Below, piece by piece: positions 10,170-36,659 of a DNA stretch of 64,000 nt (position 1 is its first letter; every line of letters starts with the position of its first letter). Location: contig NZ_KB893388.1 in NCBI RefSeq assembly GCF_000374085.1, forward strand, positions 62,001 through 126,000, in the 5' to 3' direction. Made by a program: the position numbers and the translations under genes. The notes beneath the pieces were generated by a model. The model saw only the letters and a program-made list of their open reading frames with translations. It did not search any database and was not told where the DNA came from. Source of the stretch: Spirosoma spitsbergense DSM 19989. GTDB taxonomy: Bacteria > Bacteroidota > Bacteroidia > Cytophagales > Spirosomataceae.

Positions 10170-10178
10170 CAAAACCAC

Positions 10179-11977: not shown

Positions 11978-12001
11978 TGTATTGACACTAAACCAGCAAC
12001 C

Positions 12002-13463: not shown

Positions 13464-13510
13464 GGTGATAGTTCTGTTCCTCACCGCCTGCCGGAGCAGG
13501 GTAAGGTTAG

Positions 13511-14200: not shown

Positions 14201-14293
14201 AGATGAATTAATAGTTGATATGCCGGGTTAACGCCCGATGTTCCGCAAATGTTATAAAGAAATTGTGGCGAAGCGATAAAAAAGAAGGGTTTA

Positions 14294-20611: not shown

Positions 20612-23600
20612 CTACTGACAGATAATCTTCACCGTATGTGTCTGCTGTTGCTTGGTAGCCTGCAAAAACAGCATACCCGGCCCGGTTGATGGGTCCAGTT
20701 TAAACTGCTGCACTTCCTGGGCACTCGCCTGCTCAATGACCCGGCTCTCCAGCAACCGACCCCGCACATCCGTCAACCGCAGTTGCACTGGTTGTCCTTC
20801 GGCCCCTTTTATGAGCACCTGAACGGTTTCGTGGACGGGGTTTCCCAGTAGCTGAAGCGACAGGGTGGTGCCCGCTTCTTCGGCGGCTACGCGTGCCCGG
20901 CCGCAAGCCTGTTTGAGATCCCAGGTGTAGGTGACGACGTTGCCACTCTGGCGGGCCATGAGCGTGAAGGGCTGCACATCAGTAGCCGTACGGGAGTCCT
21001 TATCGACAAACTGGTTGGGGTTGGTGGTCCAGCCGGTAATGCCTGCAGCTGTGTACTCAATGGCAGTACCATTGCCCCCGACCGTGTTGAATCTAAAGGC
21101 ACCCGTAGCACAGTTGTAGGTAGGTTCAATGAGGGTCAGGCCCGTTGTTGGATTCCTGGACTTAAAGGTGAGGGTAAGATTGCGGGAAACTGGCAGATTG
21201 GGATACAAAGGATTAACAACGGTTATCGTTATGGGAAAACTTCCTATCCTGTTGTCCTTTGATCCAAATATGTATAAACCATACGTATTTAGGTCGTCCA
21301 GCAATCGAAAGTTATAATAAATGCCCGGTGGTAAGTTAGTTACGGTTTTCGACCAGCGCTCAATCGGATTTGATTGATCAGTCGTTACCTCACCAACTTT
21401 ATAATCAAAATACGTACTGACGAAAAAGGTTGTGTCAACACCAAACAACCGAATGTCATCTTTCTTACAAAACGCGCCAAAGTCAAATGAATAGCTGGTC
21501 GTTTTGCCGCTTTGAGTAGCCTGAATGGTGATAGGCTTCGGGTCATTGCGTAATCCCTGCTCAATAGTGCCGGTGTTGCTGGTGAGCGACGAACGGATTA
21601 TACCCGGTGCCTGGTAGGTAATGGTCGAGCCATCGCCCCCGGTAGTGTTGAACGTAATGGCCCCTGTAGCGCAGTTATAAGTGGGAGCCGTGAGTGCCAG
21701 ATTACCCGTTGTCGGCGGAGTTACACAGGCCCCGGATCGGTTGCTACAGAAACTGGCAAAGTCACCACCACCCGGTAAACCAGGATTAGAGGACATATCG
21801 ATATAGGCTCCTTTTCCACATAAGTTGGCCAATTCCACTGGAAAACAATCGCTTAATTGATTCTTATCAATACGCAGGTTTTGAAGGCGCGTTAAGTTGC
21901 CGAAACTAGCTGGTATCGAGCTCGTTAGCTGGTTGTTGTACAGAAGTAAGAATTGTATATTCGGTAAATTGCCTAAGCTGGCCGGGATAGATCCGCTCAA
22001 CTGGTTGTCATATAGATAGAGCGTAATGGCGTTTAGTAAATTACCTAAATTGGCGGGAATCGAGCCACTCAACTGATTCCTGGATAGATCGAAATAGTTT
22101 ACTCTGGCTAAATTGCCTAACGTGACGGGAATTGGTCCGCTAAGTTGATTATTGGGCATGTCAAAAACTTGAAGTCCGGGTAAATTCCCTAAACTGGCAG
22201 GAAGCGTACCGGCTAATTTATTACTACCTAAGCTGAGTCCAGTCACCCGGTTATTACCATCACAGGTTACGCCAAACCAGTTGCAGGGGCTATCGCCCTG
22301 CAACCAATTCGTTTTGTTGGTCCATCCCGGCCCGTTGGTGGCGTTGTACAGCTCTACCAGGATTGCCCGGTCATTATTGGGTTGTACGGGGGGATTGGTC
22401 CCGATTGGGCAGGTGGCCCTCAAATCGAATCTATACGTCACCGTTACCCCACTCTGGGTGGCGGAGAGGGTAAGGGGCTGAGCATCGGCGGCCTGCCGAA
22501 GGCCCGCATCCACAAACTGATTGGGGTTGGTAGTTGGTCCGGTAATGCCGGGGGCGAAGTAGGTAATGGTCGAGCCATCGCCCCCGGTGGTGTTGAACGT
22601 AATGGCCCCGGTAGTGCAGTTATACGTGGGTGCGATGAGAGTAAGTGCCTGCGTATTCGCTCTGGCCGCCTGCTTACGAACCCAGATAACAGTGTTGGTG
22701 CTGTTGTCCGTCCTGCCAGGGAAGTCGGGTGAATTAGTTGTACCGGAAATAAAGTAAGTTCCGTCCGGGTTTACTATAACTTTCCGGGCATAATCGTCGC
22801 CACGTCCCCCGCCTTTTTCCTGCCAGTCGATATTCAGTTCTGAATTGAATTTGGTAATCCTATAATCCCGCCCATTTCCGGCATAGCTATCCACTACAAT
22901 ACAGCCCCCATCGGGCGTGGGTTTGATGGATGTTCGATAAGAAGCGTTTTCTGGATACGTATCCGCCAGTCGGGTTGCCTTAATGACATCGAGGTTACGG
23001 TTTAGTTTCAGCACGGTTAACCCTGATAAACCGGTGTACGTACCCGTAGCGACATAGCCATCTGCCGTGGAGGCAAAGTCGAAGAATGTAGCGGAAGGGC
23101 TTCCGATGCGCTGCCATACGATGGTACCCTGCTCATCGACCCTGAAATTGTAGATTACGCTGAAATTTTTATCCGTACTACCCGTAATGCTTTTGGCAGT
23201 CGTCGTACTGTGAACCAGATAACCTCCTTCACTGGCTACGCTTACTCCCGGCAGACCAGTCAAACTGGTACTACCATCACCAAGGTATCTTTTTACCCAG
23301 GTTGTATTGCCATCTTTATCGAGCTTTAGTAGTAAAATATTCGAGAAGTTATCCGGGTTTAGCATACTGGCAATGGATTGAATCCCCGAAACCAGAAATC
23401 CTCCGTCAGGCGTTGCAATCAACCCACTCGCGCCATATGTATAACTACGGCTTGTGGGTAAACCCTGCAAGTCGAGATATTTTCTATAAATTACAGTACC
23501 CGTTGGCCCTATACGTTCCAGCAGCATTGGATCACCGCCCAAACTTTCTAAAACCAGAAAACCGCCATCTGACATTGCCTGTAAGTAATAACCATTCACT

Positions 23601-23881
23601 GAGTTAGAGTAGAGCGGGGTAGTCCACTCAACCGTACCTTCTGCGCTAAGTTTTGTGATAGATGAAGTTGAAGCAGTAGACACGATGGTGCATCCTCCAT
23701 CAGCAGACCGGACCAGGGAGACTGTGGGATCAGGTGCTGCATTCTGGTCAAGGATGCGCTGCCAGTTAACGGGTGGAATAGGGGACTGCGCCCGTGTATT
23801 CGTTATGAAGGCCAGCGTCAATGCTCCCATCAGGAGCAGGAGTCCGTAAAGACGAATGGGTAAATAGTACATCGTTTTCAT
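20612..23881 (-). CDS. T9SS-secreted protein with WD-like repeats, plant-type LRRs and triple repeat domain
   Basis: 1089 residues. A signal peptide (LYGLLLLMGALTLAFITNTRAQ) is followed by a propeller-like region with PDGGFLVSG-type repeats (about 50-390), then three copies of a roughly 75-residue module starting APTYNC-TGAI-FNTTGGDGS. Between copies 1 and 2 lies a leucine-rich repeat block with an LRR-NT-like cap (NKTNWLQGDSPCNWFGVTCD) and about six 24-residue LxxNxLSGxIPxxLGNL repeats of the plant-specific type. The C-terminus (LSLQLLGNPVHE, LTDVRGRLL, final VKIIC) is a type A T9SS sorting domain. An adhesive or binding role at the cell surface is inferred. The ATG at 23881 is chosen because it starts the signal peptide. 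Confidence 0.87.
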   Translation of the reverse strand: MKTMYYLPIRLYGLLLLMGALTLAFITNTRAQSPIPPVNWQRILDQNAAPDPTVSLVRSADGGCTIVSTASTSSITKLSAEGTVEWTTPLYSNSVNGYYLQAMSDGGFLVLESLGGDPMLLERIGPTGTVIYRKYLDLQGLPTSRSYTYGASGLIATPDGGFLVSGIQSIASMLNPDNFSNILLLKLDKDGNTTWVKRYLGDGSTSLTGLPGVSVASEGGYLVHSTTTAKSITGSTDKNFSVIYNFRVDEQGTIVWQRIGSPSATFFDFASTADGYVATGTYTGLSGLTVLKLNRNLDVIKATRLADTYPENASYRTSIKPTPDGGCIVVDSYAGNGRDYRITKFNSELNIDWQEKGGGRGDDYARKVIVNPDGTYFISGTTNSPDFPGRTDNSTNTVIWVRKQAARANTQALTLIAPTYNCTTGAITFNTTGGDGSTITYFAPGITGPTTNPNQFVDAGLRQAADAQPLTLSATQSGVTVTYRFDLRATCPIGTNPPVQPNNDRAILVELYNATNGPGWTNKTNWLQGDSPCNWFGVTCDGNNRVTGLSLGSNKLAGTLPASLGNLPGLQVFDMPNNQLSGPIPVTLGNLARVNYFDLSRNQLSGSIPANLGNLLNAITLYLYDNQLSGSIPASLGNLPNIQFLLLYNNQLTSSIPASFGNLTRLQNLRIDKNQLSDCFPVELANLCGKGAYIDMSSNPGLPGGGDFASFCSNRSGACVTPPTTGNLALTAPTYNCATGAITFNTTGGDGSTITYQAPGIIRSSLTSNTGTIEQGLRNDPKPITIQATQSGKTTSYSFDFGAFCKKDDIRLFGVDTTFFVSTYFDYKVGEVTTDQSNPIERWSKTVTNLPPGIYYNFRLLDDLNTYGLYIFGSKDNRIGSFPITITVVNPLYPNLPVSRNLTLTFKSRNPTTGLTLIEPTYNCATGAFRFNTVGGNGTAIEYTAAGITGWTTNPNQFVDKDSRTATDVQPFTLMARQSGNVVTYTWDLKQACGRARVAAEEAGTTLSLQLLGNPVHETVQVLIKGAEGQPVQLRLTDVRGRLLESRVIEQASAQEVQQFKLDPSTGPGMLFLQATKQQQTHTVKIICQ

Positions 23882-23964
23882 AAAATTGGGTTGATTTATT
23901 GGATTGACTGAATCAGGGGAAATGTTGGGTTTATTGAACAGGTAAGCTACCCGGGGTAGCCACT

Positions 23965-25263
23965 CTAAAGAGAACCAGCACAATCAAGCCGGTAAACCTT
24001 GTGCCGATGTTGCTGGAACTGACTGTCGAAGGTTGTTACGGAAATGTACAGGCTATCCGACGGGTGACGGGAAGAATTGACCAGCCGTACTTCATTTCTG
24101 GTGCCATCAAATTCGAGAACACGCAGCCAGGTTTTACCCGAATCCCTGGTGTACATCAGCAGGCTCTTGTCGTTGGCCGATAGGCAGCTATAGGATATGG
24201 CCCAGATTTCGGTGCCCGTTGCCGTTTGTCGGCTCACCATGTTCATAATGGGACTGCGCCGGTAAGGGTCGGGTAAAACATACCGCTCAAACTGGCGACC
24301 TGCTTCGGTGCGAACCATGAAATTCGTCCCGCCCAGATAGTCACTGCCAAATAGAACCGCTTCGTCCGTTTCAGCCATTGACATGTAGCCCCCCGTTTGG
24401 TGGTGATATTGGTTGAGCAACCGCCAACCGCTGTTTGGCTCGGTAGATTGGTTGTCGAAATGGTTTAGTGCGCTATTGATCCACGCTTGTTTTTTGTTGT
24501 CGCCATCCGTCAGAAACAGGGCATTAAGCAGGGTACTGTACCGCACCAGATGAATGTGCTTGTTTACTCCCTGCCGTAACAGAAAATCAGCGGTGTGCCA
24601 GGTGATTCCTGCATCGGTGGAGTAATAGAGATAAGCCAGATTTTGCCACGCGCGGCCATGCCATATCGAACCGTATTCCCCAATCAGCAGCGTGCCGTCC
24701 GGCAACTCGGTCATGCCGTTGTTGAACAGGAAATAGCTTATCGGGGTCGAGAGCTGTAACACTACATCAAACGACTGCCCCTGGTCATCACTCCGGTGGA
24801 TAGCCCCGTCGGAGCAAATGAAGAGGGTGTTCTGGCGATCGGTGAAAAACGACGTGACTGGCCTTTTGAACCTATGTACCAGAACGACGGACTGACTCTG
24901 ATCATCGCTGCGGTAGAGCGCGTTGGGGTCAGAAAAACAGCAACCCCACAACAGGCCAGTGGGCGTCTCGATGCAGTATTTCCAGTCAACGGCAACGGGC
25001 TGGATCGATAAACCCGGTACAATCTGCTGGTCCGGCCAGTCGCTTTTGTCGGTAAGAATGTGGTACGGAGCATCCGTGAACTTTAAGTATTGGTCGTGGA
25101 ATTGATACAGGTGAAGTCGGTGGATGACTTCCCACAGGGCGAAAGAGATCAGCTCCCGCTGCTTGCCAACCCGGCGGATAGCTTCCAGGAAATGCCACAG
25201 GTAAACTGGCCATTGAAGGCTGGGCTTTTTGAGCAAAGAAAAATAGCGTGATGAAACATCCAT
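23965..25263 (-). CDS. BNR/sialidase-type propeller protein, unknown function
   Basis: 432 residues. The body shows repeated SDDQGQSF, STDAGITW and TRDSGKTW motifs (Asp-box/BNR repeats), so it should form a beta-propeller like sialidases or photosystem-assembly-type propellers. Catalytic sialidase residues could not be identified. No signal peptide is evident at the chosen start (MDVSSRYFSLL), so it may be cytoplasmic. The gene follows the methyltransferase on the same strand after 31 bases, so the two probably form an operon. Cell-surface sugar modification would be a guess. Confidence 0.68.
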   Translation of the reverse strand: MDVSSRYFSLLKKPSLQWPVYLWHFLEAIRRVGKQRELISFALWEVIHRLHLYQFHDQYLKFTDAPYHILTDKSDWPDQQIVPGLSIQPVAVDWKYCIETPTGLLWGCCFSDPNALYRSDDQSQSVVLVHRFKRPVTSFFTDRQNTLFICSDGAIHRSDDQGQSFDVVLQLSTPISYFLFNNGMTELPDGTLLIGEYGSIWHGRAWQNLAYLYYSTDAGITWHTADFLLRQGVNKHIHLVRYSTLLNALFLTDGDNKKQAWINSALNHFDNQSTEPNSGWRLLNQYHHQTGGYMSMAETDEAVLFGSDYLGGTNFMVRTEAGRQFERYVLPDPYRRSPIMNMVSRQTATGTEIWAISYSCLSANDKSLLMYTRDSGKTWLRVLEFDGTRNEVRLVNSSRHPSDSLYISVTTFDSQFQQHRHKVYRLDCAGSL

Positions 25264-25294: not shown

Positions 25295-26137
25295 TTAAAC
25301 AGACTGCATGGATTCCGTGCGGTTAGCGACCAGCGTGTACATGAGGAGGGGCTTATCGTGCCGGGCAACATGCTGCCGATGGTAATTGATTCGAACGTCG
25401 CCAAAGCCAAGCGCGTACAGGAAGTCGTCAAGCCGTTCGGGGGTGAGCTGCCCCCCTGTTTCTTCGAACGGATCTACAGCCGCCAGCGATTCCGAAGCCA
25501 CGGGTGGCCCCGTAAACCGGTGGCGAATCTTACGCATTGTGGAAGTAGCCAGCCGCCCAAACAGACGATCGATGATTGGTGGACGGGTATTGTTCAGCAT
25601 AGCAGTAATGACAATCGTTTCCCGGGTGATGCGTGCAGCCTGTTGAAGGGCTAAAAGCGGATTACTGACGTGTTGCAGGATACTGCCAAAGGTGGTGATG
25701 TCTACCGGTTTAACCAGATCCGGAATAGCGAATAGGGTTCCTCGAACTAACTCGGCCCGTGAGTTCAACAGCCTGTGGCTCAACCGGTAGGCATTGTTGA
25801 TTTTACGAATTCGATTCCTTCGTTCGGAGATCAGGTCATTCGCTGCCTTGCCAGGGTGGGGAACGATAGCCAGGTCATCATTGGGCGAGAAATCATAACT
25901 GACCAGCGACGCTCCTTTCTTTTCCATATAGAAGGTAAGAAATCCGTTGGCTGTCCCCATATCCAGCACCCGTTTGTTGGTCACAATAATGTTTCCCAGG
26001 TACTCGTCAGGGGCATTCCGCAAGTCGATCTCACCCGGCATTTCGCCTAAGCCGGGTAAGTCGATAGTGTGGTAGAAGTGGTAATCATCGGGGGTAACTT
26101 TACGGCGAATGAGGTTGGACGGTTGAATGGCTGTCAT
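25295..26137 (-). CDS. SAM-dependent methyltransferase, class I
   Basis: 280 residues. The Rossmann motif I is VLDMGTANGFLTFYMEKKGA, followed by an acidic motif II in VSYDFSP and a post-motif FGSILQHVSNPLLALQQAARIT typical of small-molecule methyltransferases. The N-terminal FYHTIDLPGLGEMPGEIDLR resembles the TylF/tRNA-cmo5U-like DUF1698 group that modifies sugars or other small molecules. The substrate is unknown. The ATG at 26137 is chosen because the upstream extension has no family character. Confidence 0.85.
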   Translation of the reverse strand: MTAIQPSNLIRRKVTPDDYHFYHTIDLPGLGEMPGEIDLRNAPDEYLGNIIVTNKRVLDMGTANGFLTFYMEKKGASLVSYDFSPNDDLAIVPHPGKAANDLISERRNRIRKINNAYRLSHRLLNSRAELVRGTLFAIPDLVKPVDITTFGSILQHVSNPLLALQQAARITRETIVITAMLNNTRPPIIDRLFGRLATSTMRKIRHRFTGPPVASESLAAVDPFEETGGQLTPERLDDFLYALGFGDVRINYHRQHVARHDKPLLMYTLVANRTESMQSV

Positions 26138-26253
26138 ACTTTTGTTCGTTTGGATAGGGAGCGGAAAGACTGCTTTGACCGGGGATGAGGACGAACGAAC
26201 TGCTCCGAAACGGTTCACCAACCCGGTTTTGGTTATGTATCGGGCAAGGGATA

Positions 26254-26297
26254 AAAAGGTGAGTCAGAAAAAAAATATTTTTTCTGACTCACCTTTT
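26254..26297. terminator. Perfect 20-bp inverted repeat with A/T cores
   Basis: Arms 26254-26273 and 26278-26297 are exactly complementary around a four-base loop. It lies between two divergent genes, where no terminator is expected, so it may be an operator or cruciform-forming element. On either strand it would nonetheless act as an intrinsic terminator because of its T-runs. Confidence 0.7.
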
Positions 26298-26381
26298 CGA
26301 GGCTGTGCCTATCAATTAGCGACGGTAGAAAAAAAGGGGTTACGGAGTTGAGAATTATCTTCGTGGCTACACAATAGTCTT

Positions 26382-26969
26382 ATGGCAACCCGACAACTAC
26401 CCATTTACCCAACCGACCGGGACTTGTATGTTGCCCTCAGCCATCGGGAAGAGCGGGCGTATCAGTTTTTGTATGCTGAATCGTTCCCTGCCTTTCGGCA
26501 CTGGATGTTGGCAAACAGCGGCTCAGAGATGGATGCCGAAGATGCCTTTCAGAAAGGGCTGCTTAGTTTTCTGCTCAACATCGAAACCGGCAAATACCAG
26601 TTTCAGGAGGAGACCCGCGTCACCACGGTCGTATTCGAGTATTGTAAACGGGTGTGGCTGACTGAGTTGAAGTCGGCCCGTTTCAGAACGAAAGTTGCCA
26701 TGCCTGATGGATTCGATACCATCGATTCAACGGATGTTGCCACTGACCTGGAACGGCTGGACGTAGTAAATGCCGTGAGGCAGTCACTACAGCAACTCAA
26801 GGGCGATTGCAGACAGCTAATCGAGTGGTTTTACGTCGAGGAACTGTCATTACGGGATATTGCCCAGCGGCTTGGAATGAAAGAAACCTCCGTAAAATCG
26901 AAACGGTACGACTGCGCCGAAAAACTAAAAGCGTTTTACCAGCAAACCTCAATTCAGCGGGACTTATGA
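26382..26969 (+). CDS. ECF RNA polymerase sigma factor
   Basis: 195 residues with sigma-70 region 2 (ALSHREERAYQFLYAESFPAF, DAEDAFQKGLL) and region 4 (LQQLKGDCRQLIEWFYVEEL, SLRDIAQRLGMKETSVKSKR). It therefore directs core RNA polymerase to a specific regulon. The next gene starts inside its stop codon and encodes a membrane anti-sigma-like protein. The pair ends one base from the end of the kinase/caspase gene run on the opposite strand, which makes co-functionality possible but unproven. Confidence 0.92.
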   Translation: MATRQLPIYPTDRDLYVALSHREERAYQFLYAESFPAFRHWMLANSGSEMDAEDAFQKGLLSFLLNIETGKYQFQEETRVTTVVFEYCKRVWLTELKSARFRTKVAMPDGFDTIDSTDVATDLERLDVVNAVRQSLQQLKGDCRQLIEWFYVEELSLRDIAQRLGMKETSVKSKRYDCAEKLKAFYQQTSIQRDL

Positions 26970-27772
26970 ACTTGTCGGAAGAACAGTATGACATCATCGA
27001 AGCGTACCTGGCCAACGAATTATCGGCCAGCGACCGGGCTTCGTTTGAAGGCGACATACAAGCCGATGCCGAACTCAGCGCCGAGGTAGAGCGGCAGCGT
27101 ACCCTCCGGCTGGGGCTGCGGGCCCTGGGCATCGAGCAGGCACTAGTCAGGGCGAAAGCGCATTATCAGGCCACGTCCTCATCGCAAGCGGCTTTATCTA
27201 GCAGGGAATCGCCAATAATACGGCCACTCGTTCGGTTGCTGAACACCTGGCAGTATTGGGTTGCGGCCGCGTCGATTGTGTTGTTGCTTGGTGTAGGGTA
27301 TTATGCTTTCCAGCAGCAACTGGCACGGCGCGATGCGGTTGCCTATGCCGATAGTTTTGGTCCCGCGCCAACCGACCAGGTGATGAAAGGTTTTCCAACG
27401 GCTGCGTTCCCGTTGGCTGACCGCCCCCGGCTGCTCGACGCATTCAAAAACTATAAAGCCGGGAAATACGACCGGGTGATTGATCAGCTAAAAACACTGC
27501 CGGCTGATAAGCAGACGATTTACTACAAAAACTACTTTCTGGGATTAACCTATCTGGCCAACCGGCAACCCGCCGAAGCACTGCCGTTGTTGAACAGTGC
27601 ACGGATAGCTCCTGCACTCGCGCTCCGGCAAAAAGCTACCTGGTTTATGGCATTGGCTTACGTCAAAAACGGGCAAAAAAATAAGGCTTTGCCCGTGCTG
27701 AAACAAATCAGTACCGACAAAGCCAATCCATTCAACGCCCTAGCGCGTCAGGTACTACAAAAAATTGACTAA
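26966..27772 (+). CDS. Membrane anti-sigma-like protein with C-terminal TPR region
   Basis: 268 residues. An N-terminal anti-sigma-like helix set (LSEEQYDIIEAYLANELSAS, DRASFEGDIQADAELSAEVE) precedes one transmembrane helix near residues 95-115 (QYWVAAASIVLLLGVGYYAF). The periplasmic part has TPR-like helices (FKNYKAGKYDRVIDQLKTLP, NYFLGLTYLANRQPAEAL). The ATG at 26966 overlaps the sigma stop (ATGA); longer in-frame starts lie inside the sigma gene. TPRs suggest that the signal is protein binding in the periplasm. Confidence 0.82.
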   Translation: MNLSEEQYDIIEAYLANELSASDRASFEGDIQADAELSAEVERQRTLRLGLRALGIEQALVRAKAHYQATSSSQAALSSRESPIIRPLVRLLNTWQYWVAAASIVLLLGVGYYAFQQQLARRDAVAYADSFGPAPTDQVMKGFPTAAFPLADRPRLLDAFKNYKAGKYDRVIDQLKTLPADKQTIYYKNYFLGLTYLANRQPAEALPLLNSARIAPALALRQKATWFMALAYVKNGQKNKALPVLKQISTDKANPFNALARQVLQKID

Positions 27773-27773: not shown

Positions 27774-29432
27774 CTATTGGTTGAAGAGTGCCTGTACTTC
27801 ACTGGCCGTTAGTGCCCGCTTGTAGATTCGAATGTCGTCCAGCGCCCCCAGGAAATAGTTCGGTAAATCGCGCGATTGAGCCCCGAATTTCAGGTCACCA
27901 CCGGGGCAGGTATCGAGCGTGTTTTTTGGTAAATCGTCCTTGGCGTACAACAGGGCATTGTCAAAGTACATCCGAACGGACGTACCACTGTATGTCATGA
28001 CAACATGGTGCCACTTGCTCAAATCCGGTCGGCCGGGAAACGTAAATGTCTGCCAGCCAACACCCGGCTGGCAGTTGCTGTTTTGTTTGATGTCGGTGTT
28101 GATGATTATCCCACCCGGGTCGGCCGTGTTCGGTCTAATCAGGGAGCTATACAACTCGGCTGTACCGTCGCTGAAACGCGACTTGTTGTATATCTGCATG
28201 GTTCGGATGACCGACGTCGGTTTGATCCAGATACTGACCGATAAGGCACTGGGGTTCAGTATTGTATTGTCGGGCATGTAGAAATAGTCGGTAGAGCCAT
28301 TCAGCAAAATAGCCGAGTTGGCTTTGCCCGTATGATCCGTCGTGAACGCAGGGCTGCCCACCAGTTTGACATGGTTGTTGTTGGCACTGGCATCCAGTAG
28401 TGATTGGTCGGTAAACGACACGGCGGCAACCAAATCCGTTGAGAGCGTGTCAACCTGCGTAATGAATGTCATGACATCGCCGTACCTGACCTCTCCCGAA
28501 GCCAGACGGGCGTAAACCCGGTAGTAATAGGTCTTGTTTGGCGTCAGATTGGCCAGGTTAACGGGTATATTGGCGTTCAGGGGTGGACCAGCAACCTTTG
28601 CAGTTGTTGCGTTGATGAGGTCCGGCAAACTATTCACCGATGAATAACAGATTCCATACTCCACCGCAGCCGGATTGCCCGTTTTATCAATCAGGAAGTT
28701 AACCGTGGCGGTTGAAACGCCCGGACTGGCCACACCGGTAACGATAGCAGGATACTGCCCCGTTGTAAACGATTGGGTTGGACTGCTGTAACCAGCCTGC
28801 CCTGAGGCATTGTTGGTAGCGTAGGCCCGAACGTAGTACAGCGTATTTTCTGTAAGGCCCGTTAGCGAGAAGGAAACGGGCGTGTTGAGCGCCACAGTCC
28901 CGGTCAGGTTTGCCACCTTGTCTTTGCCCACTTCTGGCTGTGGATTCGTTGAGGAGTAGCAAACGCCGTAGCTGGTAAGGGTGGCATTTCCAGTGCTGAT
29001 AACCGACATCCGCAGTACGGCACTGGTTTGGGTCACATCACTCACGGGCTGCAACGCTACCGTGGGCGCTACTGCATCCGTCGCACTAACCGTTTGCTGA
29101 AGCGTCGTTCCAATATCACAGGTGTTTGTTAGTGTCGCTTTTACGGTGTACGTACCGGAGGTCGGGTACGTATAACTAACTGTCAGGCCAGTGGTGACGG
29201 TTGTACTGTTGTTGCCGAAATCCCACACTACCTGGTCGATGGTGCCGCTGCTGTTGGTAATGGCACAGTCGATTCTGCGTTGCTGGGTCTGTATACTGAT
29301 TGTTCCCGAAGGCTGCGTACAGGCCCGCTTTGATTTTTTGCCGGGGAGTTCCCAGTTCTCACAACTCAGCAGTAGCGTCAGGCCAGTGCCGGTTAAAATA
29401 AAATAGAGTAAACAGGTTCGCAGATGATTCAT
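27774..29432 (-). CDS. Surface lipoprotein with PKD, FN3-like and LamG domains
   Basis: 552 residues. Signal peptide with lipobox (LLLSC, C24), then a PKD domain (about 45-125; VWDFGNNSTT, YTYPTSGTYTVKATLTN), two fibronectin-III-like repeats with YYVRAYATNNASG and YYYRVYARLASGE, and a C-terminal concanavalin-like LamG domain (about 345-550; SVSIWIKPTS, DDIRIYKRALTASEVQALF). It should be anchored at the outer membrane and bind sugars or protein. It is the last gene of the minus-strand run from 36659 and ends one base from the anti-sigma gene. Confidence 0.87.
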   Translation of the reverse strand: MNHLRTCLLYFILTGTGLTLLLSCENWELPGKKSKRACTQPSGTISIQTQQRRIDCAITNSSGTIDQVVWDFGNNSTTVTTGLTVSYTYPTSGTYTVKATLTNTCDIGTTLQQTVSATDAVAPTVALQPVSDVTQTSAVLRMSVISTGNATLTSYGVCYSSTNPQPEVGKDKVANLTGTVALNTPVSFSLTGLTENTLYYVRAYATNNASGQAGYSSPTQSFTTGQYPAIVTGVASPGVSTATVNFLIDKTGNPAAVEYGICYSSVNSLPDLINATTAKVAGPPLNANIPVNLANLTPNKTYYYRVYARLASGEVRYGDVMTFITQVDTLSTDLVAAVSFTDQSLLDASANNNHVKLVGSPAFTTDHTGKANSAILLNGSTDYFYMPDNTILNPSALSVSIWIKPTSVIRTMQIYNKSRFSDGTAELYSSLIRPNTADPGGIIINTDIKQNSNCQPGVGWQTFTFPGRPDLSKWHHVVMTYSGTSVRMYFDNALLYAKDDLPKNTLDTCPGGDLKFGAQSRDLPNYFLGALDDIRIYKRALTASEVQALFNQ

Positions 29433-29457
29433 GGGGGCGAAAAGATTGAGTGGATGC

Positions 29458-30390
29458 CTAAAACGTGTAGCTAACGGCCAGACCCCAGGATTGAGACGAG
29501 GGTTTCCAGCGCAGTGCATTGACCGGCGATTTAGGCTTCGGCTGGTGAATGAGTAAGTAAATCTCGGCTACAACCGCTACGGCTGCCACGCCCACGCAGG
29601 CTTTGAACAACCCGTTTTTTTGCTGGGCCGCTTCCGCAGCCGCATAGGCATCGGCATACTGACGATAACCAGCGGGGTTGTCGATGATGCCGGTATTGTT
29701 AGGGTCAACGGTCTGGCTAATCTGGCTCAAAGCGCCCAGTTTAGATTGGTAGTTGTTTCGCAGCAGCAACCCGTAGACACTCGCCCCAACAGCTACTGCG
29801 CCGGTAAAAAGCTTAAGGCCAGCGTGGTTGGCTGGTTTTTGTACGGAGACGGGTGCTTTTGGCTTCAGGTTTTCCTCGGCGTTGTGAATTTGAAGCCGCA
29901 GGGTTTCCTGCCTGGTCGTGTACTTGAGGGCTTCGGTGTACCGGTCTTTCGCTTCGGCCCATTTCTGCTGCGCGTACAACTGATTTCCTTCACGTTCATA
30001 GTACTCCGCCAGCCGCGCTTTGGTGCGCACATCATCAGAATTGAAAGCCAGTAACTCACCATAAAGACGGAGAACTTCCTGATTGTTACCCTGTTGCCGG
30101 GCTTCTTCTACCTGCTGGTTCAGTATCAGGCCGGTGATACTTTTTTCAATTTTGCCTTCAGCGTACGCATCGTTCTCGAAACCCGGTACTTCAAGGCAGT
30201 TTTGGTATTGCTGACGGGCTTTAAAGTAGTCGCCGGTTTTGAAAAACTCATCGCCCTGCTTTTTATAACGCTCATATTCTTCATCAACCACGGTAGTTGA
30301 CACAGGCGTCTGGGCCATTAATGACCGCAGCGGAAAGGTTGTTACAATAAGAAAAAACAGAAAGGTTGAGTAGGGTAGTAGTTTATGCAT
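29458..30390 (-). CDS. Secreted TPR protein with two membrane segments
   Basis: 310 residues. A signal peptide (LPYSTFLFFLIVTTFPLRSLMAQ) is followed by TPR-like helices (EEYERYKKQGDEFFKTGDYF, EREGNQLYAQQKWAEAKDRY), then a C-terminal part with two hydrophobic segments (LKLFTGAVAVGASVYGLLL, ACVGVAAVAVVAEIYLLIH) and a final strand ending in VSYTF. It lies 9 bases after the kinase gene stop and 25 bases before the lipoprotein start. It probably sits in the envelope as an assembly or binding platform. Confidence 0.75.
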   Translation of the reverse strand: MHKLLPYSTFLFFLIVTTFPLRSLMAQTPVSTTVVDEEYERYKKQGDEFFKTGDYFKARQQYQNCLEVPGFENDAYAEGKIEKSITGLILNQQVEEARQQGNNQEVLRLYGELLAFNSDDVRTKARLAEYYEREGNQLYAQQKWAEAKDRYTEALKYTTRQETLRLQIHNAEENLKPKAPVSVQKPANHAGLKLFTGAVAVGASVYGLLLRNNYQSKLGALSQISQTVDPNNTGIIDNPAGYRQYADAYAAAEAAQQKNGLFKACVGVAAVAVVAEIYLLIHQPKPKSPVNALRWKPSSQSWGLAVSYTF

Positions 30391-30399
30391 GTAGAGAAC

Positions 30400-32598
30400 C
30401 TATTGGGATTGATTGGTGCAGAGTTTTATTTGTTTTTGGACTTCTTTGGTGTCTTCGGCTGCCTGAGCCACCAGATACCAGTCTTTGGCCCCATCGTACG
30501 TGGCCCGGCCGTAGTAACTATCCCCTTTTTTCAGCGCGTACGTATAAGCATCGTTGGCTTTGCTGGTGTTGAGGTCGTGCTGTTTGGCCAGTTTCTCTGC
30601 CTCATTGAATGCCGAGATGGCTTTTGCTTTGTTGTTGCCGCGAGAGATGGCTTTCATGCCCTCTTCCATCAGCTGGTCATATACTTGCTGCGCTTCTTTC
30701 CTGGCGGCTTCGGCAACGGCCTTCGGGTCTGGTTCGGCTGCTTTTGCTGGTTCTGCTTTCAGTGGGTCAGGCACAACCGTATTGGGTGTTTCGGTTGGCA
30801 GGTCTGATTTCGGAACGGTTTGACCCGATTTTTGCCGGGCTTCGGTTGCGGTATTTTGAAGGGAGACTACATCCCGACGGGTTGGGTCGAGTAACAACGC
30901 ACTTTTTGTTAGCACCAGCGCCTGTTCGTAGTTTTTTTGCCGGTAGGCCTGCTGCGCTTTTTTTAGTGCCGCATCGATCCGCTTGTTCAGCACGGCCCTG
31001 GCATCTGTCGATGCGGGTGGTAACGGCTCTGGCACAGCGGTTATGCCTGCTTCTTTGACAGGGGCAGCAGTAACTGACGCAAAAGCAGTTGCCGATGAAT
31101 CGGTTGTTGGTTGGATATCAGTTGCAGGGGACGGGGTGCCATTCAGTGCCGTGTATAATACCGCCAGTCCGGCCAAAACGGCTACTCCCGGAGCTACAAT
31201 CCGCCACGGGAATGGCCGGGACACGGCAGTGATGGAGGGGGCTAAGGAACGGACATCAGTCGGTTCGGTTGGCACCACTACGCTGGGTGTAGTATGGGCA
31301 GGTGTAACGGGAGTGGGCTGTTCGATGCCTTGTTTGGGAGCGGTCGGCCGGGGCGTATCCACGTACATATCCGTTTCTGCTACCCCATAGATGTCCGTTT
31401 CTTCGGATTGCGAAGGTCGTGGCAGAAGCTGACCAAGGCATCGGGCTTTACCGTCAAGAGCCAGTTTGTTGGCAGGGGCTAGCCGCAGTACCTCATCAAA
31501 TTGCTTTTCTGCCTGCCTGGGTTGCTGACGTTCGAGTAACGAATCGGCCTGTCGTAACAGCACCGCTATCCACTGCTTTTCGATGGCTGCTTTGCACTGG
31601 TCAATACCCTGCTGCGCCCTGGGCTGGTTTTCCCGTTTGGCGAGTACCTGCTCGTATACGCCGAGTGCTTCATCGTACTGCCCCCGCTCAAACAGGGTTC
31701 CTGCCTCGGCTAATAACGTGTCAATCTGGTCCAGCAAATCAAGCAATTCGTCTTCCTTCCGAACCCGCTCGCGTATATCGCGAACCAGACACCGCCGAAT
31801 GATGCTACGGTATGGCTCGGCAATTTGCGCAAGGCTGTCAGGTAATTCGACGGTTACTATTTTCTTTTCAATTTCCCGCCGGACCGATTGTTCACTGCTG
31901 TTACGCTGGTCGACCCGGAACGGTTTTTCTCCGGTCATGATCTCGAATAGGATGACGCCGAATGCCCACAGGTCGAGATTGAAACTGACTTTGCTGCCTT
32001 CTATCTGCTCGGGTGCTTTGTAGGATGGCGTACCGCGTCCGTCACTCAAGTCGAAATCAGACCCGTCGAATTCCTCATCACTAACCAGTTTGCTCAACCC
32101 GAAATCGGCGATTTTAGGAATAAAGCATCCGGTACTGTCGCGGGAAATGAGGATGTTGGCCGGTTTAAAATCACGATGGACAATGTGGTGTTGATGCAGG
32201 TGACGAAGGCCCATCAAAATGCCTTTTGTCAGATCGTAAATCTGAGCGGGGGTCAGGTTCACATGGCGGAGGAGGTCGGCCAGATTGCCATCCGGGTAGT
32301 ACTTCATGATGGCGAAGTCGCTGACGCTGGTATCCGTTTCTAACCGGTAGCAGGCATCGTACCGGGCAATGTTGCTGTGACGCGGAACGCGTTGTGCCAG
32401 TTCTACTTCTGCCTTCAGCGACTTGCTGTCGTTTCCTTTAAATTCACTGATTTTTACGGCAACCCATTCTGTATCGATCTGGTCTTCTACTTTGATTACG
32501 CGTCCGTACGATCCACTGCCCAGCATAGCTCCTGCATCGTTGGGGCGAATCGGGTAGCGCCGTCTGAACGCTGAAAACGAAGTAAACGCTTGTGTCAT
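30400..32598 (-). CDS. Hanks-type Ser/Thr protein kinase with TPRs and a transmembrane helix
   Basis: 732 residues. The kinase domain (about 20-300) has the glycine loop LGSGSYGRVIKV, VAVK with K49, the catalytic loop HRDFKPANILIS with D143, DFGLSK, and an APE-like KAPEQIEGS. After it come TPR-like repeats (about 310-420), one transmembrane helix (PWRIVAPGVAVLAGLAVLYT) and a periplasmic part with more TPR and Ala/Lys-rich helices. It thus spans the inner membrane, kinase inside. It lies between the caspase-like gene upstream and the secreted TPR gene. Substrates are probably recognised by the two FHA proteins in the run. Confidence 0.93.
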   Translation of the reverse strand: MTQAFTSFSAFRRRYPIRPNDAGAMLGSGSYGRVIKVEDQIDTEWVAVKISEFKGNDSKSLKAEVELAQRVPRHSNIARYDACYRLETDTSVSDFAIMKYYPDGNLADLLRHVNLTPAQIYDLTKGILMGLRHLHQHHIVHRDFKPANILISRDSTGCFIPKIADFGLSKLVSDEEFDGSDFDLSDGRGTPSYKAPEQIEGSKVSFNLDLWAFGVILFEIMTGEKPFRVDQRNSSEQSVRREIEKKIVTVELPDSLAQIAEPYRSIIRRCLVRDIRERVRKEDELLDLLDQIDTLLAEAGTLFERGQYDEALGVYEQVLAKRENQPRAQQGIDQCKAAIEKQWIAVLLRQADSLLERQQPRQAEKQFDEVLRLAPANKLALDGKARCLGQLLPRPSQSEETDIYGVAETDMYVDTPRPTAPKQGIEQPTPVTPAHTTPSVVVPTEPTDVRSLAPSITAVSRPFPWRIVAPGVAVLAGLAVLYTALNGTPSPATDIQPTTDSSATAFASVTAAPVKEAGITAVPEPLPPASTDARAVLNKRIDAALKKAQQAYRQKNYEQALVLTKSALLLDPTRRDVVSLQNTATEARQKSGQTVPKSDLPTETPNTVVPDPLKAEPAKAAEPDPKAVAEAARKEAQQVYDQLMEEGMKAISRGNNKAKAISAFNEAEKLAKQHDLNTSKANDAYTYALKKGDSYYGRATYDGAKDWYLVAQAAEDTKEVQKQIKLCTNQSQ

Positions 32599-32630
32599 AC
32601 TGGGTGGATTTGCTACATATTTTGCCTTTA

Positions 32631-33401
32631 TCAAAGATACGCTAAAGGGAGATTATCTGAAAATCGGCCGTAGAAAATCGGCGTCTGTCTCCCCATCGTT
32701 CGCTTCGTTACCCGGGGCGATACGTATTGGTGTAACTCTTTTATCGTCACGACGCCATCCCCGTTGAGGTCGCCCTGACCACCGAGTCCCCTGAGCAGGT
32801 AATACGTAAACGCCCCGCCCGCCAGCCGACCATCTTCAACGGCAAACTGTGTCGACCGACTGGCCAGTATCATCGCTACGTTTGTGTCCTTCGTTCGGGG
32901 TTTTATCGCAGACGGAATCGACTTTTGACGGGTCAGGCCACCCGACAGGCAGGCATCGGCAATGCACAGCTTTGTTATTGCCTTGGCGTCGTGAAAACCT
33001 GCCTTGATAAGGCCATACGTGAGTATTCGAGTCAGTTGGCCGGGTTTGGCATCGTACGGAACGAATCCGTTGGGCAGGCCATGGCCCGAAAAATAAAGAA
33101 TGACCCGGTCGCTGGTACCTGCCCGCCGGAAAAGCGTCAGGGCCTGGTTAATGGCGGTTAAGGTTGCCTGCTTGTTTGTCAGCAGCCGTATGTGCGATTC
33201 GGGGACACTGCCGCCCGACTTACTGCGCAGGAAGGCGGCTACCTGCCGGGCGTCGCGATCCGAAAAGCGTAAGTCGCCCGTGCGGTAGGTTAGAGCCTGA
33301 TAGTCGGCAATGCCAACGACAACGGCGTAGGTTTGGCTGCGAGAGGAGGGTTGTGCGGCTCCCGTAATGAGCATCAGACCAAGTAAAACGTTAACTAGCA
33401 T
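32631..33401 (-). CDS. Caspase-like cysteine protease (C14) with an EF-hand-type loop
   Basis: 256 residues from the ATG at 33401 (another ATG is at 33416). After a signal peptide or anchor (LVNVLLGLMLITGAAQ) comes a p20-like caspase fold: YAVVVGIADYQAL, the catalytic His in YFSGHGLP (H107) and the catalytic Cys in IADACLSGG (C151). Near the C-terminus, DLNGDGVVTIKEL matches a calcium-binding EF-hand/dockerin loop. It starts within the last 11 bases of the PP2C gene, hence translational coupling. The envelope location indicated by the N-terminus is unusual for caspase homologues. Substrate unknown. Confidence 0.88.
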   Translation of the reverse strand: MLVNVLLGLMLITGAAQPSSRSQTYAVVVGIADYQALTYRTGDLRFSDRDARQVAAFLRSKSGGSVPESHIRLLTNKQATLTAINQALTLFRRAGTSDRVILYFSGHGLPNGFVPYDAKPGQLTRILTYGLIKAGFHDAKAITKLCIADACLSGGLTRQKSIPSAIKPRTKDTNVAMILASRSTQFAVEDGRLAGGAFTYYLLRGLGGQGDLNGDGVVTIKELHQYVSPRVTKRTMGRQTPIFYGRFSDNLPLAYL

Positions 33402-34209
33402 AACGGGGGGTGGCATGTACAAGTGAGGCCGGTTCGGTAACCGACACGTGGCTGACTCCAACAAGATGACCGGAGTAATTGTCTTTTGTTTTGTGGTGGC
33501 ATAAGGTAAGCAGGGCGTCCACTTTTTCCGCATCAGACAATCGCTGATTCAGCAGGTCTTCAAGCGTATGGTTATCAATTTGCTCCTGAACGCCGTCCGT
33601 ACAAATGAAAAAATAATCGCCGGGTTGAATGTCGGTCAGGCAGATACACTCAGCGGTAGCCCGGTTGAGGGCTTTGTCCGTATCACCAGCGCTGGCAGTT
33701 ACGGCGCGGCTGAGCCGGTTGCGCCAGGGGTGCGTTGCGGCCTGGGCTGCGGTGATGATGCCAGCCTCCACCATGTCGTTAACCTGCCGGTGATCGCTCG
33801 TCTGGAAAATAACCTTGCCGGCCCGAATCTGATACACCCGACTGTCGCCAAGGTGCGCTACCGTCGCTCCCTGTTCATGAAACTGCAGGAGCGCCAGCGT
33901 TGACCCCATGCGGTTGACCAACGGATGCCGATTCAGGAAATCCAGGTAAGCCCTGTAGGCAATGTCAAGGGCTGAACGCAGGTGGACTGAATCGAGAATG
34001 GGTGACCCCATAGACTCGATGTAGCCCGCTACCGCATCACAAAGCAACTGGCTGGCTACCTCCCCTTTGTCGGCTCCGCCCATGCCATCACAAATAATAA
34101 ACAGGGGTGTTTTCCCTCCGGTCCCGATCGCCGGGAACAGGGTATCCTGATTGACTGTCCGCTGGCCGATGTGTGAAAAAGAAACAGGCATTGTAAGGCA
34201 AATCTGCAT
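33391..34209 (-). CDS. PP2C-family serine/threonine phosphatase
   Basis: 272 residues, a stand-alone PPM/PP2C phosphatase. Motifs: NQDTLF, ICDGMGGADKGEVASQL with the metal aspartates, AHLGDSRVYQI, and FFICTDGVQEQIDN. No membrane segment, so cytosolic. It is separated by 3 bases from the upstream FHA gene and overlaps the caspase-like gene. It is the obvious partner to reverse phosphorylation by the kinase two genes downstream, as in other bacterial kinase-phosphatase-FHA circuits. Confidence 0.94.
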   Translation of the reverse strand: MQICLTMPVSFSHIGQRTVNQDTLFPAIGTGGKTPLFIICDGMGGADKGEVASQLLCDAVAGYIESMGSPILDSVHLRSALDIAYRAYLDFLNRHPLVNRMGSTLALLQFHEQGATVAHLGDSRVYQIRAGKVIFQTSDHRQVNDMVEAGIITAAQAATHPWRNRLSRAVTASAGDTDKALNRATAECICLTDIQPGDYFFICTDGVQEQIDNHTLEDLLNQRLSDAEKVDALLTLCHHKTKDNYSGHLVGVSHVSVTEPASLVHATPRYAS

Positions 34210-34212
34210 AAC

Positions 34213-34815
34213 TTACTGGGTTCGGTCAGGGTTGAAATCCATCGTAACTTTGTACGTCTCAAGCATGAGTGGGGGGATGGTGTAATGCGAAAGGCGGAAG
34301 CGGTCAATACCGCCCAGGGTTATTTCCTGATTGTTACCAACGTCAAGGCACTCGGTTTTTAGTAAAGGAATACCGTTGAGCAGAGTACCGTTCAGGCTGT
34401 ATTTCGTGGCTTGACCGGCCTCTTCGGTTGCCCCATCACATAGTTGATACCGCAGTTGGCCCGTCCATTTATCGAACACGACGGTCAGCGTACAATGTCG
34501 GCGGCTGATGTAGCACCGGCCATCGTGTACCAATCGACCCACCTGCACCGTACAGGAGTCCGCCGTACCAATCACATTCGGGCCAAACTGGAGCAGGTAC
34601 ACCGTTTCGGGGTCGTCAATGTTCATCAAATGGCCAAAAGAAGGCAGTCCCCTGACAATGTTTTCGTCGTAGTGATAGGCTGGCTGTAAGGGGTTTATGG
34701 CTCCGCAACCCACGTGTGAGCAGGTGATGGAACCCCGCTCAATATCCGTCGTACGAACCATAATCTTACGACCGCACTGCTGGCAATTTAGTAGCTTCAT
34801 CCTGAAACCGATCAT
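34213..34815 (-). CDS. FHA-domain protein with N-terminal zinc ribbon
   Basis: 200 residues. Starts with a CxxC...CxxxxC ribbon (LNCQQCGRK; ITCSHVGCGAIN), followed by an FHA domain (about 70-175) with YLLQFGPNVIGTADSCTVQV, ISRRHCTL and a degenerate NGTLLNG. FHA domains bind phosphothreonine, so it is a probable reader of the kinase product. The ATG at 34815 is used; a second one at 34800 is possible. It is 2 bases after the stop of the acidic-tail gene and 3 bases before the phosphatase. Confidence 0.85.
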   Translation of the reverse strand: MIGFRMKLLNCQQCGRKIMVRTTDIERGSITCSHVGCGAINPLQPAYHYDENIVRGLPSFGHLMNIDDPETVYLLQFGPNVIGTADSCTVQVGRLVHDGRCYISRRHCTLTVVFDKWTGQLRYQLCDGATEEAGQATKYSLNGTLLNGIPLLKTECLDVGNNQEITLGGIDRFRLSHYTIPPLMLETYKVTMDFNPDRTQ

Positions 34816-34817
34816 TT

Positions 34818-35804
34818 TTATTCGTCCATATCCTGCACATCCCCATCGTTGATGTAGGTATCATCAGCCGAGTCGTGCGAGGCTGTCTGGTACTGATTAT
34901 CATCATCATCCGTATCGTCGTCATCATCATCGTCTACCGTGTGCTCATCGGTGAATTCCTGGGACGCCGGGGCCGAGGCATCCGGTTCCAGAATCGAATC
35001 GACCACTTCTCTGGACATACTTTCTTCCAGGGCCTGGCTAAACTGATCATTGCTCAACACAATGGACTGGTCCAGGCGAACTACGGCGGTTAGTTCACCA
35101 TCCAGCGAATCATACCGGTAGACGGTGTCCAGTCCGTCGTCGCCCGCAGCATCGACTACTTTATAAATATGCCCGTCGGCGCTGTCCATCACCAACACAT
35201 CAATCACTCCGTCGTGGTTATAATCAAGGCCAATTACCCGTTGCCCGTTCAGGCTGCCTTCGATAGCGGTTGGTTCGGACGGTTGTTCCTCAGTAACAGT
35301 TTGATTGTCAGCAACAGCTTGATTGTCAGCAACGGGCTGGTGATAAACACGTATCGGTAATTTCTCGCCGGTTATCATCTCGGTGTATTCCTGCCGCTGC
35401 TCCAGCGACAGGCTGCCCCATTCATCTTTCTCGAAGGTGTTATACCAGTGGCCATGCCAGCCGAAAACCCCGCCCATGCCCACCTCATGACGGGCGGCCT
35501 CAAATGCCTGTTCGAACGACATGTCTTCGGTTACCTTACCGGCTACGTCTATGTCTTTCGGTAGCTGATTTGCTACGGGCGCCGTAGTCTCTACTGTCTC
35601 GGGTTCATTCCCGTGCGGTTTGGTAATGCCTATTATTTTCTGGCTGATGGCCCAGGCCGTGCCCCCCAGCAACAACGCTGCCGCTGAAATGCCTAACGCC
35701 TTTTTCTGCTCGACGGCTGGTCTTGGTTTGATGGAGGTAGAAGAGGGTGTGCTCATTGCGTATGTGTCGGTTAATAGGTCGGTAGAATCAGCAGGTTGTG
35801 ACAT
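34818..35804 (-). CDS. One-pass membrane protein with Ca-type loop and poly-Asp tail, unknown function
   Basis: 328 residues, no family recognised. A short cytoplasmic N-terminus precedes one transmembrane helix (ALGISAAALLLGGTAWAISQ, about 35-55). The extracytoplasmic part includes a WHGHWYNTFEKDEWGSLS segment, a D-x-N-x-D-G loop in GLDYNHDGVIDVLVMD (EF-hand or FG-GAP-like), and an extreme C-terminal acidic tail with a run of seven Asp, one Thr, then four Asp. The poly-Asp coding stretch is a GAT/GAC repeat liable to length change. Calcium binding is plausible. Confidence 0.75.
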   Translation of the reverse strand: MSQPADSTDLLTDTYAMSTPSSTSIKPRPAVEQKKALGISAAALLLGGTAWAISQKIIGITKPHGNEPETVETTAPVANQLPKDIDVAGKVTEDMSFEQAFEAARHEVGMGGVFGWHGHWYNTFEKDEWGSLSLEQRQEYTEMITGEKLPIRVYHQPVADNQAVADNQTVTEEQPSEPTAIEGSLNGQRVIGLDYNHDGVIDVLVMDSADGHIYKVVDAAGDDGLDTVYRYDSLDGELTAVVRLDQSIVLSNDQFSQALEESMSREVVDSILEPDASAPASQEFTDEHTVDDDDDDDTDDDDNQYQTASHDSADDTYINDGDVQDMDE

Positions 35805-35882
35805 AGCTCTAATAAAATAAAGATGGACGATACTGGTGAATAGAACTCGTCGGGAAAAGGTAAGTCAGGCGGAGGGAGTTTT

Positions 35883-36659
35883 TTACTTTATCCATATTGC
35901 CTGACAGCGTCGGCAGGTTTTCTGTTTCGCCAGAAAGTCCCATTCGCGCGTGCCGAAGGGGTCGCGGCACGTCGGATTCGGGCATCGGTATCGCTCCCGG
36001 TATTCTTTATCGATTATTTCTATTTTTTCTTCGGTCGACAGTAAAGTGGAGCATAAGGTGGGTAATAGCATGCTCAAACCCGCCCCCGACATAATTTGTA
36101 GTAGGGGCAGGGCCGATCCTCCGGTTGCCAATACCGAGCTTACGCCAATAATGGACGACAGGATAATGCTGCCGGTACGAACCATCTTCTCTCGATTCCG
36201 GCAGTCTTTGCGAAGCGTTGGATACTGCTCAAATACCCGCTTCAATTCGGCAAACTGAGTCGTAAAATCCAGTGGATTCTGGGTCGCTTCGGGCGAAGAA
36301 ACCGGGCGGGATTGTACCTGAGGAATCGTGTCCGGATTTTCAGGGGGCTCCGGCTTCTGGAAGTCCAGTAGTTGCTCAACCGTAAAAGGAATATCGGCGA
36401 GTTCCAGCGTGGTAGTGCGGTCTACTACCTTGCGCGTCAACCGGGTACCGTTCACAAACGTACCATTTTTGCTGCCGAGATCCTCCAGCAGGAAACTGTC
36501 CGGTGTACACTGAATTAAGCGGGCGTGCTGGCCGCTTATTCTACTGTTCGACAACACGATGGCGTTGTTCGTGCTACGGCCAATAGTGTACGAAGAAAGA
36601 TGACTTAGTTCCTCGATGAGTTGCTCAAATTGGCCTTCGTCATGATTTCTGGTAGTCAT
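35883..36659 (-). CDS. FHA-domain membrane protein with C-terminal zinc ribbon
   Basis: 258 residues. The FHA domain comes first (about 20-95): TIGRSTNNAIVL, ISGQHARLIQ, LEDLGSKNGTFVNG, all canonical phosphothreonine-binding elements. A proline-rich linker follows, then two hydrophobic segments (TGSIILSSIIGVSSVLATGG, LLQIMSGAGLSMLLPTLCS) and a C-terminal ribbon with CPNPTC...CRRC. The order FHA/TM/ribbon is the mirror of the other FHA protein (ribbon/FHA). It is the first gene of the run and lies downstream of a 667-base spacer that should carry the promoter. Confidence 0.88.
   Translation of the reverse strand: MTTRNHDEGQFEQLIEELSHLSSYTIGRSTNNAIVLSNSRISGQHARLIQCTPDSFLLEDLGSKNGTFVNGTRLTRKVVDRTTTLELADIPFTVEQLLDFQKPEPPENPDTIPQVQSRPVSSPEATQNPLDFTTQFAELKRVFEQYPTLRKDCRNREKMVRTGSIILSSIIGVSSVLATGGSALPLLQIMSGAGLSMLLPTLCSTLLSTEEKIEIIDKEYRERYRCPNPTCRDPFGTREWDFLAKQKTCRRCQAIWIK

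Follow-up and report, generated by a model that had tools for sequence, protein, structure and literature searches.

Caspase homologues encoded beside sigma factors are already known from Myxococcus and other bacteria (PMC3501461) and from the EACC2 loci (PMC8195603), which often carry a gene for an extracytoplasmic function (ECF) sigma factor together with a tetratricopeptide repeat (TPR) gene (PMC7159879, PMC8195603), and in the type III-E CRISPR CASP system (Csx29, Csx30 and CASP-sigma) cleavage of an inhibitor relieves an ECF sigma factor (PMC10028731). Here we describe a locus of Spirosoma spitsbergense DSM 19989, situated in a stretch of 64,000 nt (assembly GCF_000374085.1, contig NZ_KB893388.1, positions 62,001-126,000) that we call the window and on which all coordinates are based, where an apparently exported caspase-like protease (CASP) is encoded with a Ser/Thr kinase (KIN), a PP2C phosphatase, two FHA-domain proteins (FHA1 and FHA2) and an acidic membrane protein (ACID). 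That the kinase, PP2C, the membrane FHA protein, the zinc-ribbon FHA protein and ACID belong to one conserved gene unit, which in most cases also includes the exported caspase-like protease, is well supported by the comparison of sequences across genera and orders. The individual components are familiar from other systems. No description of the unit, of the ACID family or of the link to the sigma factor was found in the open-access literature searched, where no title or abstract opening describes this gene combination, which was new to the preliminary description of the locus as well.

As far as the passages describing them extend, the closest systems each overlap with the locus in part. The type III-E system likewise combines genes for a caspase-superfamily protease, an ECF sigma factor and that factor's inhibitor, but its protease is an RNA-activated TPR-CHAT protein (PMC10028731), whereas ours is a single-domain C14 caspase, apparently exported and accompanied by kinase, PP2C, FHA and ACID genes; against the CHAT model it scores 16.3 bits, with a cut-off of 24. 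EACC1 and EACC2 share a constant caspase with the locus, but the passages on them mention neither a phospho-signalling core nor ACID (PMC7159879, PMC8195603). The window caspase reaches 75.5 bits with NF047832, the model of the EACC1-associated caspase, below its cut-off of 140, and DUF1822 has no match in the ten window proteins scanned. The metacaspase-sigma operons combine a caspase homologue with sigma-70 factors, but FHA domains and phosphatases are absent from the main text and the operon section contains no ACID-like unit (PMC3501461). In the kinase-kinase-phosphatase (KKP) module, PP2C, kinases and an FHA domain occur in one gene set, but as a prophage triplet whose kinases are fused to FHA and cold-shock domains, with no caspase in the main text (PMC11341870). 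The Spirosoma locus has one kinase, carries its FHA domains on separate proteins and gave no cold-shock match. The threonine-phosphorylation circuit of the type VI secretion system also follows a logic of kinase, PP2C and FHA; it was rejected as an identity for this locus, the VipB sheath model PF05943 having 0 matches in the genome and a positive E. coli control.

Results

Genes were called as longest open reading frames (ORFs), and genes hidden by an overlapping ORF, such as FHA2 in the related locus L064, were recovered by a scan of all ORFs. The eight contiguous minus-strand genes of the preliminary description are present as ORFs with Pfam matches in agreement, and the spacers of -11 to +78 bases fit provided that the caspase starts near 33401. 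All eight genes are real and intact, and their grouping is more than chance. The unit is larger than these eight genes, as a convergent plus-strand pair encoding an ECF sigma factor and an anti-sigma-like protein belongs to it.

ACID (34818..35804, minus strand), an unknown acidic membrane protein in the preliminary description, matched no Pfam family and had no credible sequence match in the PDB (best E values 0.35 and 0.4). It is a single-pass membrane protein: by the Kyte-Doolittle rule used here to score hydrophobic segments, exactly one is present in 102 of 116 distinct ORFs, and one lies ahead of the conserved motif in 103 of 116. That motif, GxGGxFxWHG in the window and extending around GxGGxFxWHGxxYNT, is together with an EW pair invariant or nearly so in 50 aligned sequences. 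The short basic N-terminal tail has a conserved Thr-Asp, an acidic-Thr motif occurs in 87 of 111 tails, and the basic residues preceding the hydrophobic segment suggest that the tail is cytoplasmic. Asp-rich DxDxDG loops of calcium type suggest calcium binding. The window protein ends in a Y-x-N-[DN] motif, and a strict motif of the Y-x-[ND]-[DNH] type lies within the last 22 residues in 77 of 116 ORFs, compared with a background of 0.007 per 22-residue stretch elsewhere.

The phospho-signalling proteins surround ACID, all on the minus strand. FHA1 (35883..36659; FHA, 64 bits) has an N-terminal FHA domain, a two-segment membrane hairpin at about residues 165-199 and a C-terminal zinc ribbon; the pocket Arg, Ser and His are kept in 21/21 sequences and the two-segment hydrophobic stretch in 17/21. 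FHA2 (34213..34815; FHA, 29 bits) has an N-terminal zinc ribbon and an FHA domain without the phosphate-binding Arg, the position after Gly being Thr in 14, His in 3, Ile in 1 and Leu in 1 of the 19 aligned family sequences, whereas outside the family a GR pair lies within the first 130 residues in 51 of 53. Of two supposed FHA readers, both domains are there, but in this lineage FHA2 is probably no canonical phospho-reader and could instead serve as a structural partner. PP2C (33391..34209; PP2C_2, 56 bits) is without a hydrophobic segment and has intact metal-binding motifs (CDG.GG, GDSR and CTDG, 21/21 aligned sequences). KIN (30400..32634; Pkinase, 167 bits, plus TPRs) keeps HRDFKP and DFG in 21/21 and has one hydrophobic segment near residue 487 and an outer TPR-like part; its start is probably near 32598, because a Met there is present in all 21 aligned sequences. 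The naming of a PP2C phosphatase and of a Ser/Thr kinase with TPRs stands on these matches and motifs.

CASP (32631..33533, minus strand) is a predicted caspase-like protease, as first proposed, with a match to Peptidase_C14 (PF00656) at 58.8 bits (cut-off 21.4), an intact His-Cys dyad and an EF-hand-like loop. The SGHG motif and the Asp and Cys of D-x-C are invariant in 35/35 aligned sequences. Orthologues start near the equivalent of 33401 with a hydrophobic N-terminus, so the start is probably there. A single ORF encodes both PP2C and caspase in two Runella genomes; these fusions, 521 and 534 residues long, contain both motif sets and a hydrophobic stretch between the two parts. If PP2C is cytoplasmic, this stretch would place the caspase on the other side of the membrane. 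A location outside the cytoplasm is probable, and the signal-like N-termini of the caspases agree with it.

Downstream on the same strand, the TPR protein (29458..30390; TPR match sub-threshold) has the signal expected of a secreted protein, but it has two further hydrophobic segments (three in all in 20/21) and is probably membrane-bound rather than secreted. The last gene (27774..29519) encodes the LamG lipoprotein already named in the preliminary description, with Laminin_G_3, fn3 and PKD matches and a lipobox, LLSC, at ORF residue 53; it is an accessory of this lineage. On the plus strand, the ECF sigma factor (26382..26969) matches TIGR02937 at 50 bits (cut-off 42.9). The adjoining membrane protein (ORF 26807..27772, real start near 26966), which has an outer TPR-like part, reaches 30.8 bits with the anti-sigma model NF052375, below the cut-off of 100; an anti-sigma identity fits its position, its overlap with the sigma gene and its hydrophobic segment.

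By Pfam models the 7.5 Mb genome holds 4 FHA, 2 PP2C, 3 Pkinase and 3 caspase matches, and all 4 FHA, both PP2C, 2/3 kinases and 2/3 caspases sit either in the window cluster or in a paralogous cluster (contig C166, 2131-9042) of FHA1, an ACID-like gene, FHA2, PP2C, CASP and kinase, where the PP2C protein is longer (576 aa) and the kinase has Sel1 repeats. As far as these models detect, the FHA and PP2C proteins of this genome all belong to two caspase-bearing clusters. The third caspase lies in a 617-aa ORF on contig C216 (about 8859-15010), directly following an ECF sigma gene and an anti-sigma-like gene and preceding a TPR-CHAT protein, a third caspase-sigma layout.

Within the family Spirosomataceae, the window caspase was matched in 78 of 150 genomes, many via other caspases, and ACID in 41 of 150, representing 12 of 36 genera; 11 of the 18 sampled Spirosoma genomes have a close form of both. 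Relatives with the cluster include Spirosoma, Larkinella, Fibrisoma, Runella, Rhabdobacter and Persicitalea. Twenty relatives' loci taken around the best matches make 21 loci with the window, and the order FHA1-ACID-FHA2-PP2C, then CASP, then KIN and TPR, is found in all 21; in one of the 20 (L079) the caspase lies inside the PP2C frame. Convergent sigma and anti-sigma genes accompany it in 19/21. The surroundings change: NamZ, GuaA and NifS, neighbours of the window cluster on its FHA1 side, recur in 0/20 relatives' loci, and on the sigma side a methyltransferase gene or its neighbour recurs in 5/20. In these relatives the genes are not scattered. The tree of the cluster conflicts with that of GuaA, each rejecting the other (approximately unbiased test, 1000 replicates; GuaA is a single marker and several branches are weakly supported), and with these same limits purely vertical descent was rejected on this conflict; transfer of the cluster between genera is suggested. 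Three further loci (L048, L053 and L054) have two adjacent ACID genes with FHA and PP2C, the caspase not being found in the stretch, and in each a large protein follows the cluster, that of L048, where domains were scanned, being 1032 aa long and carrying PKD as well as a type IX secretion tail.

Recurrence beyond the family was assessed with an ACID scan of named species genomes, which gave 142 related stretches, 80 of which were kept as 78 loci (L081-L158): 21 from Spirosomataceae and allied metagenome-assembled genomes and 57 from other groups, chiefly Bacteroidales (Bacteroides, Prevotella, Muribaculaceae and others), with one Saprospiraceae and one Ferruginibacter genome in addition. ACID is present in these loci by construction, and many are cut by contig ends. 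Among the 57 outside loci we found FHA1 in 50, zinc-ribbon FHA2 in 53, PP2C in 49, KIN in 45 and CASP in 43, and all six core genes (these five and ACID) in 33; the 21 family loci of the same scan gave FHA1 20, CASP 17, FHA2 19, PP2C 19, kinase 20 and all six 16. The gene order, proposed at the outset as the check to make in other genomes, holds from genus to genus within the family, and other Bacteroidota orders have the core as well. Outside the family the commonest arrangement, with many variants, is LytTR-FHA1-ACID-CASP-FHA2-PP2C-KIN, and in Bacteroidales the first gene of the cluster is usually one for a LytTR regulator, in place of sigma control (LytTR in 40 of the 57 outside loci, counted with a model built from four loci, one gene of which was checked in Pfam). 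The window's TPR and LamG types were met in 0/57 outside loci, a distribution that marks both genes as lineage-specific accessories. Profile searches with ACID found it in 5/395 phylum genomes and 8/395 class genomes, two of the class hits being weak and interrupted by stops; both counts may be lower bounds, since no more than 4 or 5 candidates in each genome were scored in the first look. The module may be sparse outside the family, or the profile searches insensitive, and both may hold. In Bacteroides caecigallinarum (L101, 5633-16526) a LytTR-headed cluster has several ACID-like proteins and an exported BspA-type leucine-rich-repeat protein.

A candidate promoter connects the sigma gene to ACID. 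Aligned sequence before the ECF gene shows a conserved element, from which the type-A pattern was first drawn; a match then turned up 26-46 bp before ACID, and the spacing of the pattern was set once both had been seen. Its layout, a -35-like block, a fixed gap and a -10-like block, resembles that of ECF promoters. In the window YACCTTTT-N10-YCBAT occurs 3 times, compared with 0.01 expected by shuffling: before ACID (35840..35862, minus strand; TACCTTTT-N10-TCTAT, 35 bp upstream of the gene), before the sigma gene (26290..26312, plus strand) and, divergently, before a methyltransferase gene (26239..26261, minus strand). In a survey of 20 type-A loci, some from close species, the exact pattern precedes ACID in 14/20 and ECF in 11/18. 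Ahead of the other cluster genes it occurs in 1/153, the sole case being LamG (1/20), with none before FHA1 (0/20), FHA2 (0/17), PP2C (0/19), CASP (0/20), KIN (0/20), TPR (0/19) or anti-sigma (0/18); before non-cluster genes it occurs in 2/209, both methyltransferase genes. Another promoter set comprised 26 loci, six of them (L075-L080) of other subtypes. In two cluster types that have different ECF genes, ACID is preceded by CTGACAT-N12-NYGGAT (5/5) or GTGACCT-N12-WACGAT (2/2), counts that are descriptive since the patterns were written after viewing the same regions; elements of these two types also precede kinase genes, in 2/8 and 2/2 respectively. In Spirosoma and close genera, the ACID-led operon and the sigma factor's own gene are probably transcribed by the adjacent ECF sigma factor, a reading that the sequence supports well.

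Some further elements and neighbours were noted. The methyltransferase gene (25295-26221) has its divergent promoter copy 18 bp before the ORF, and in L067 an element of this kind goes with a gene of another methyltransferase family. Separate kinase genes near type-B clusters (L043, 3508-4932; L046, 14483-16396) have a looser CTGACAT element upstream by eye, with no exact match. Elsewhere in the window, another ECF sigma factor (14707-15312; Sigma70_r2 and r4) has a looser promoter match 18 bp upstream, and a 1123-aa leucine-rich-repeat protein (20612-23983) has a sub-threshold match to a type IX secretion tail.

Discussion

Our tentative preference, held at somewhat less than an even chance, is for a trans-envelope phosphothreonine relay that controls the exported caspase. 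KIN would phosphorylate ACID on the conserved Thr of its cytoplasmic tail; FHA1 would bind the phosphorylated tail and PP2C would remove the phosphate. Through ACID the phosphorylation state would be conveyed across the inner membrane to the periplasm, where the calcium-type loops and the C-terminal motif of ACID would engage the caspase, which would then cut an envelope substrate. By analogy with orthocaspases (PMC6426788), it would be expected to cut after Arg or Lys. We infer both the substrate and the direction of signalling. A phosphothreonine circuit tied to an exported caspase, with the acidic membrane protein, was already the proposal of the preliminary description; the gene order kept across genera, the recurrence of the core in other orders and the PP2C-caspase fusion speak for it, but the ECF/anti-sigma pair and the promoter had been missed.

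For the Spirosoma lineage the most economical substrate would be the adjacent membrane anti-sigma protein. Its cleavage would release the sigma factor and so raise expression of the operon. Two observations point to this choice: caspase genes lie next to sigma/anti-sigma genes in at least three different layouts, and the caspase-like protease of type III-E CRISPR is described as cutting a sigma inhibitor (PMC10028731). Such cleavage cannot be the output everywhere, since LytTR takes the transcriptional place in Bacteroidales and sigma genes are rare there; the general substrate must be something other than anti-sigma, perhaps ACID itself. The full proposal, in which a cytoplasmic phosphothreonine switch controls a periplasmic caspase via ACID and the caspase of Spirosoma and close genera first cuts the anti-sigma protein in a positive feedback, making this a new kind of system, we consider rather unlikely as a whole.

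Several observations weigh against the relay or its link to the sigma factor. The caspase was not found in 14/57 outside and 4/21 family loci, partly but not solely at contig ends, and some clusters keep the rest of the core without it. The phosphate-binding Arg of FHA2 is lost in this lineage, and the Kyte-Doolittle rule detects the N-terminal segment of the caspase in just 11/20. Sigma and anti-sigma genes occur in just 1/57 outside loci, and the exact promoter match before ACID is missing in 6/20 type-A loci. Genome-wide, the motif is counted 8 times compared with 4 for a reversed-pattern control, and counts are likewise near the control in 150 relatives. A large sigma regulon was rejected on these counts from the own genome and the family sample, the evidence for the promoter being positional; because the counts are near the control, the regulon is taken to be small and local.

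It is quite possible, if somewhat further from an even chance, that the cluster is an output module only: an envelope-stress ECF sigma factor, freed by other proteases, would induce the kinase, phosphatase and caspase set, which would remodel or recycle surface proteins (the LamG lipoprotein here, the BspA-type leucine-rich-repeat protein in some Bacteroidales), the caspase sparing the anti-sigma protein. The sigma-type promoter ahead of ACID and ECF, the exported accessory genes within the same unit and the clusters outside the family, mostly without a sigma gene, are all consistent with such an arrangement. However, the repeated adjoining of caspase genes to sigma/anti-sigma genes suggests a closer tie, and the fusion of PP2C with the caspase suggests that it is the caspase itself that is controlled.

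A defence or cell-death function, with the kinase/phosphatase switch restraining a caspase that kills the infected cell, appears improbable. Passages on caspases and on kinase-phosphatase modules place them in known or predicted conflict systems (PMC7159879, PMC8195603, PMC11341870), and the kinase and caspase of the window have PADLOC matches; these matches are generic, however, the NCBIfam models fall below their cut-offs (MAD6 at 124 versus 460 bits, the EACC1 caspase at 75.5 versus 140), and the caspase appears exported. On the PADLOC and NCBIfam matches of these proteins, membership in a known defence system was rejected, all of them being generic or below cut-off.

That the genes share no function and are merely neighbours co-inherited by descent in one species group is scarcely credible and largely refuted by recurrence outside the family, for while dense sampling is confined to one family and the ACID profile found few phylum or class genomes (5/395 and 8/395, the class count including two marginal hits), the core is also present, differently arranged, in other orders, the FHA1-side neighbours differ, PP2C and caspase fuse, and the promoter type changes along with the cluster type.

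For many bacterial caspase-like proteases, neither an activator nor a substrate is known. The conserved unit names likely partners for one exported caspase class, namely a kinase, a phosphatase, FHA proteins and a membrane linker, and in one lineage these also include a sigma/anti-sigma pair with a mapped candidate promoter. ACID adds an uncharacterised protein family that occurs in Spirosoma, Bacteroides and Prevotella, and the way in which a bacterial caspase is switched on becomes directly testable in culturable bacteria.

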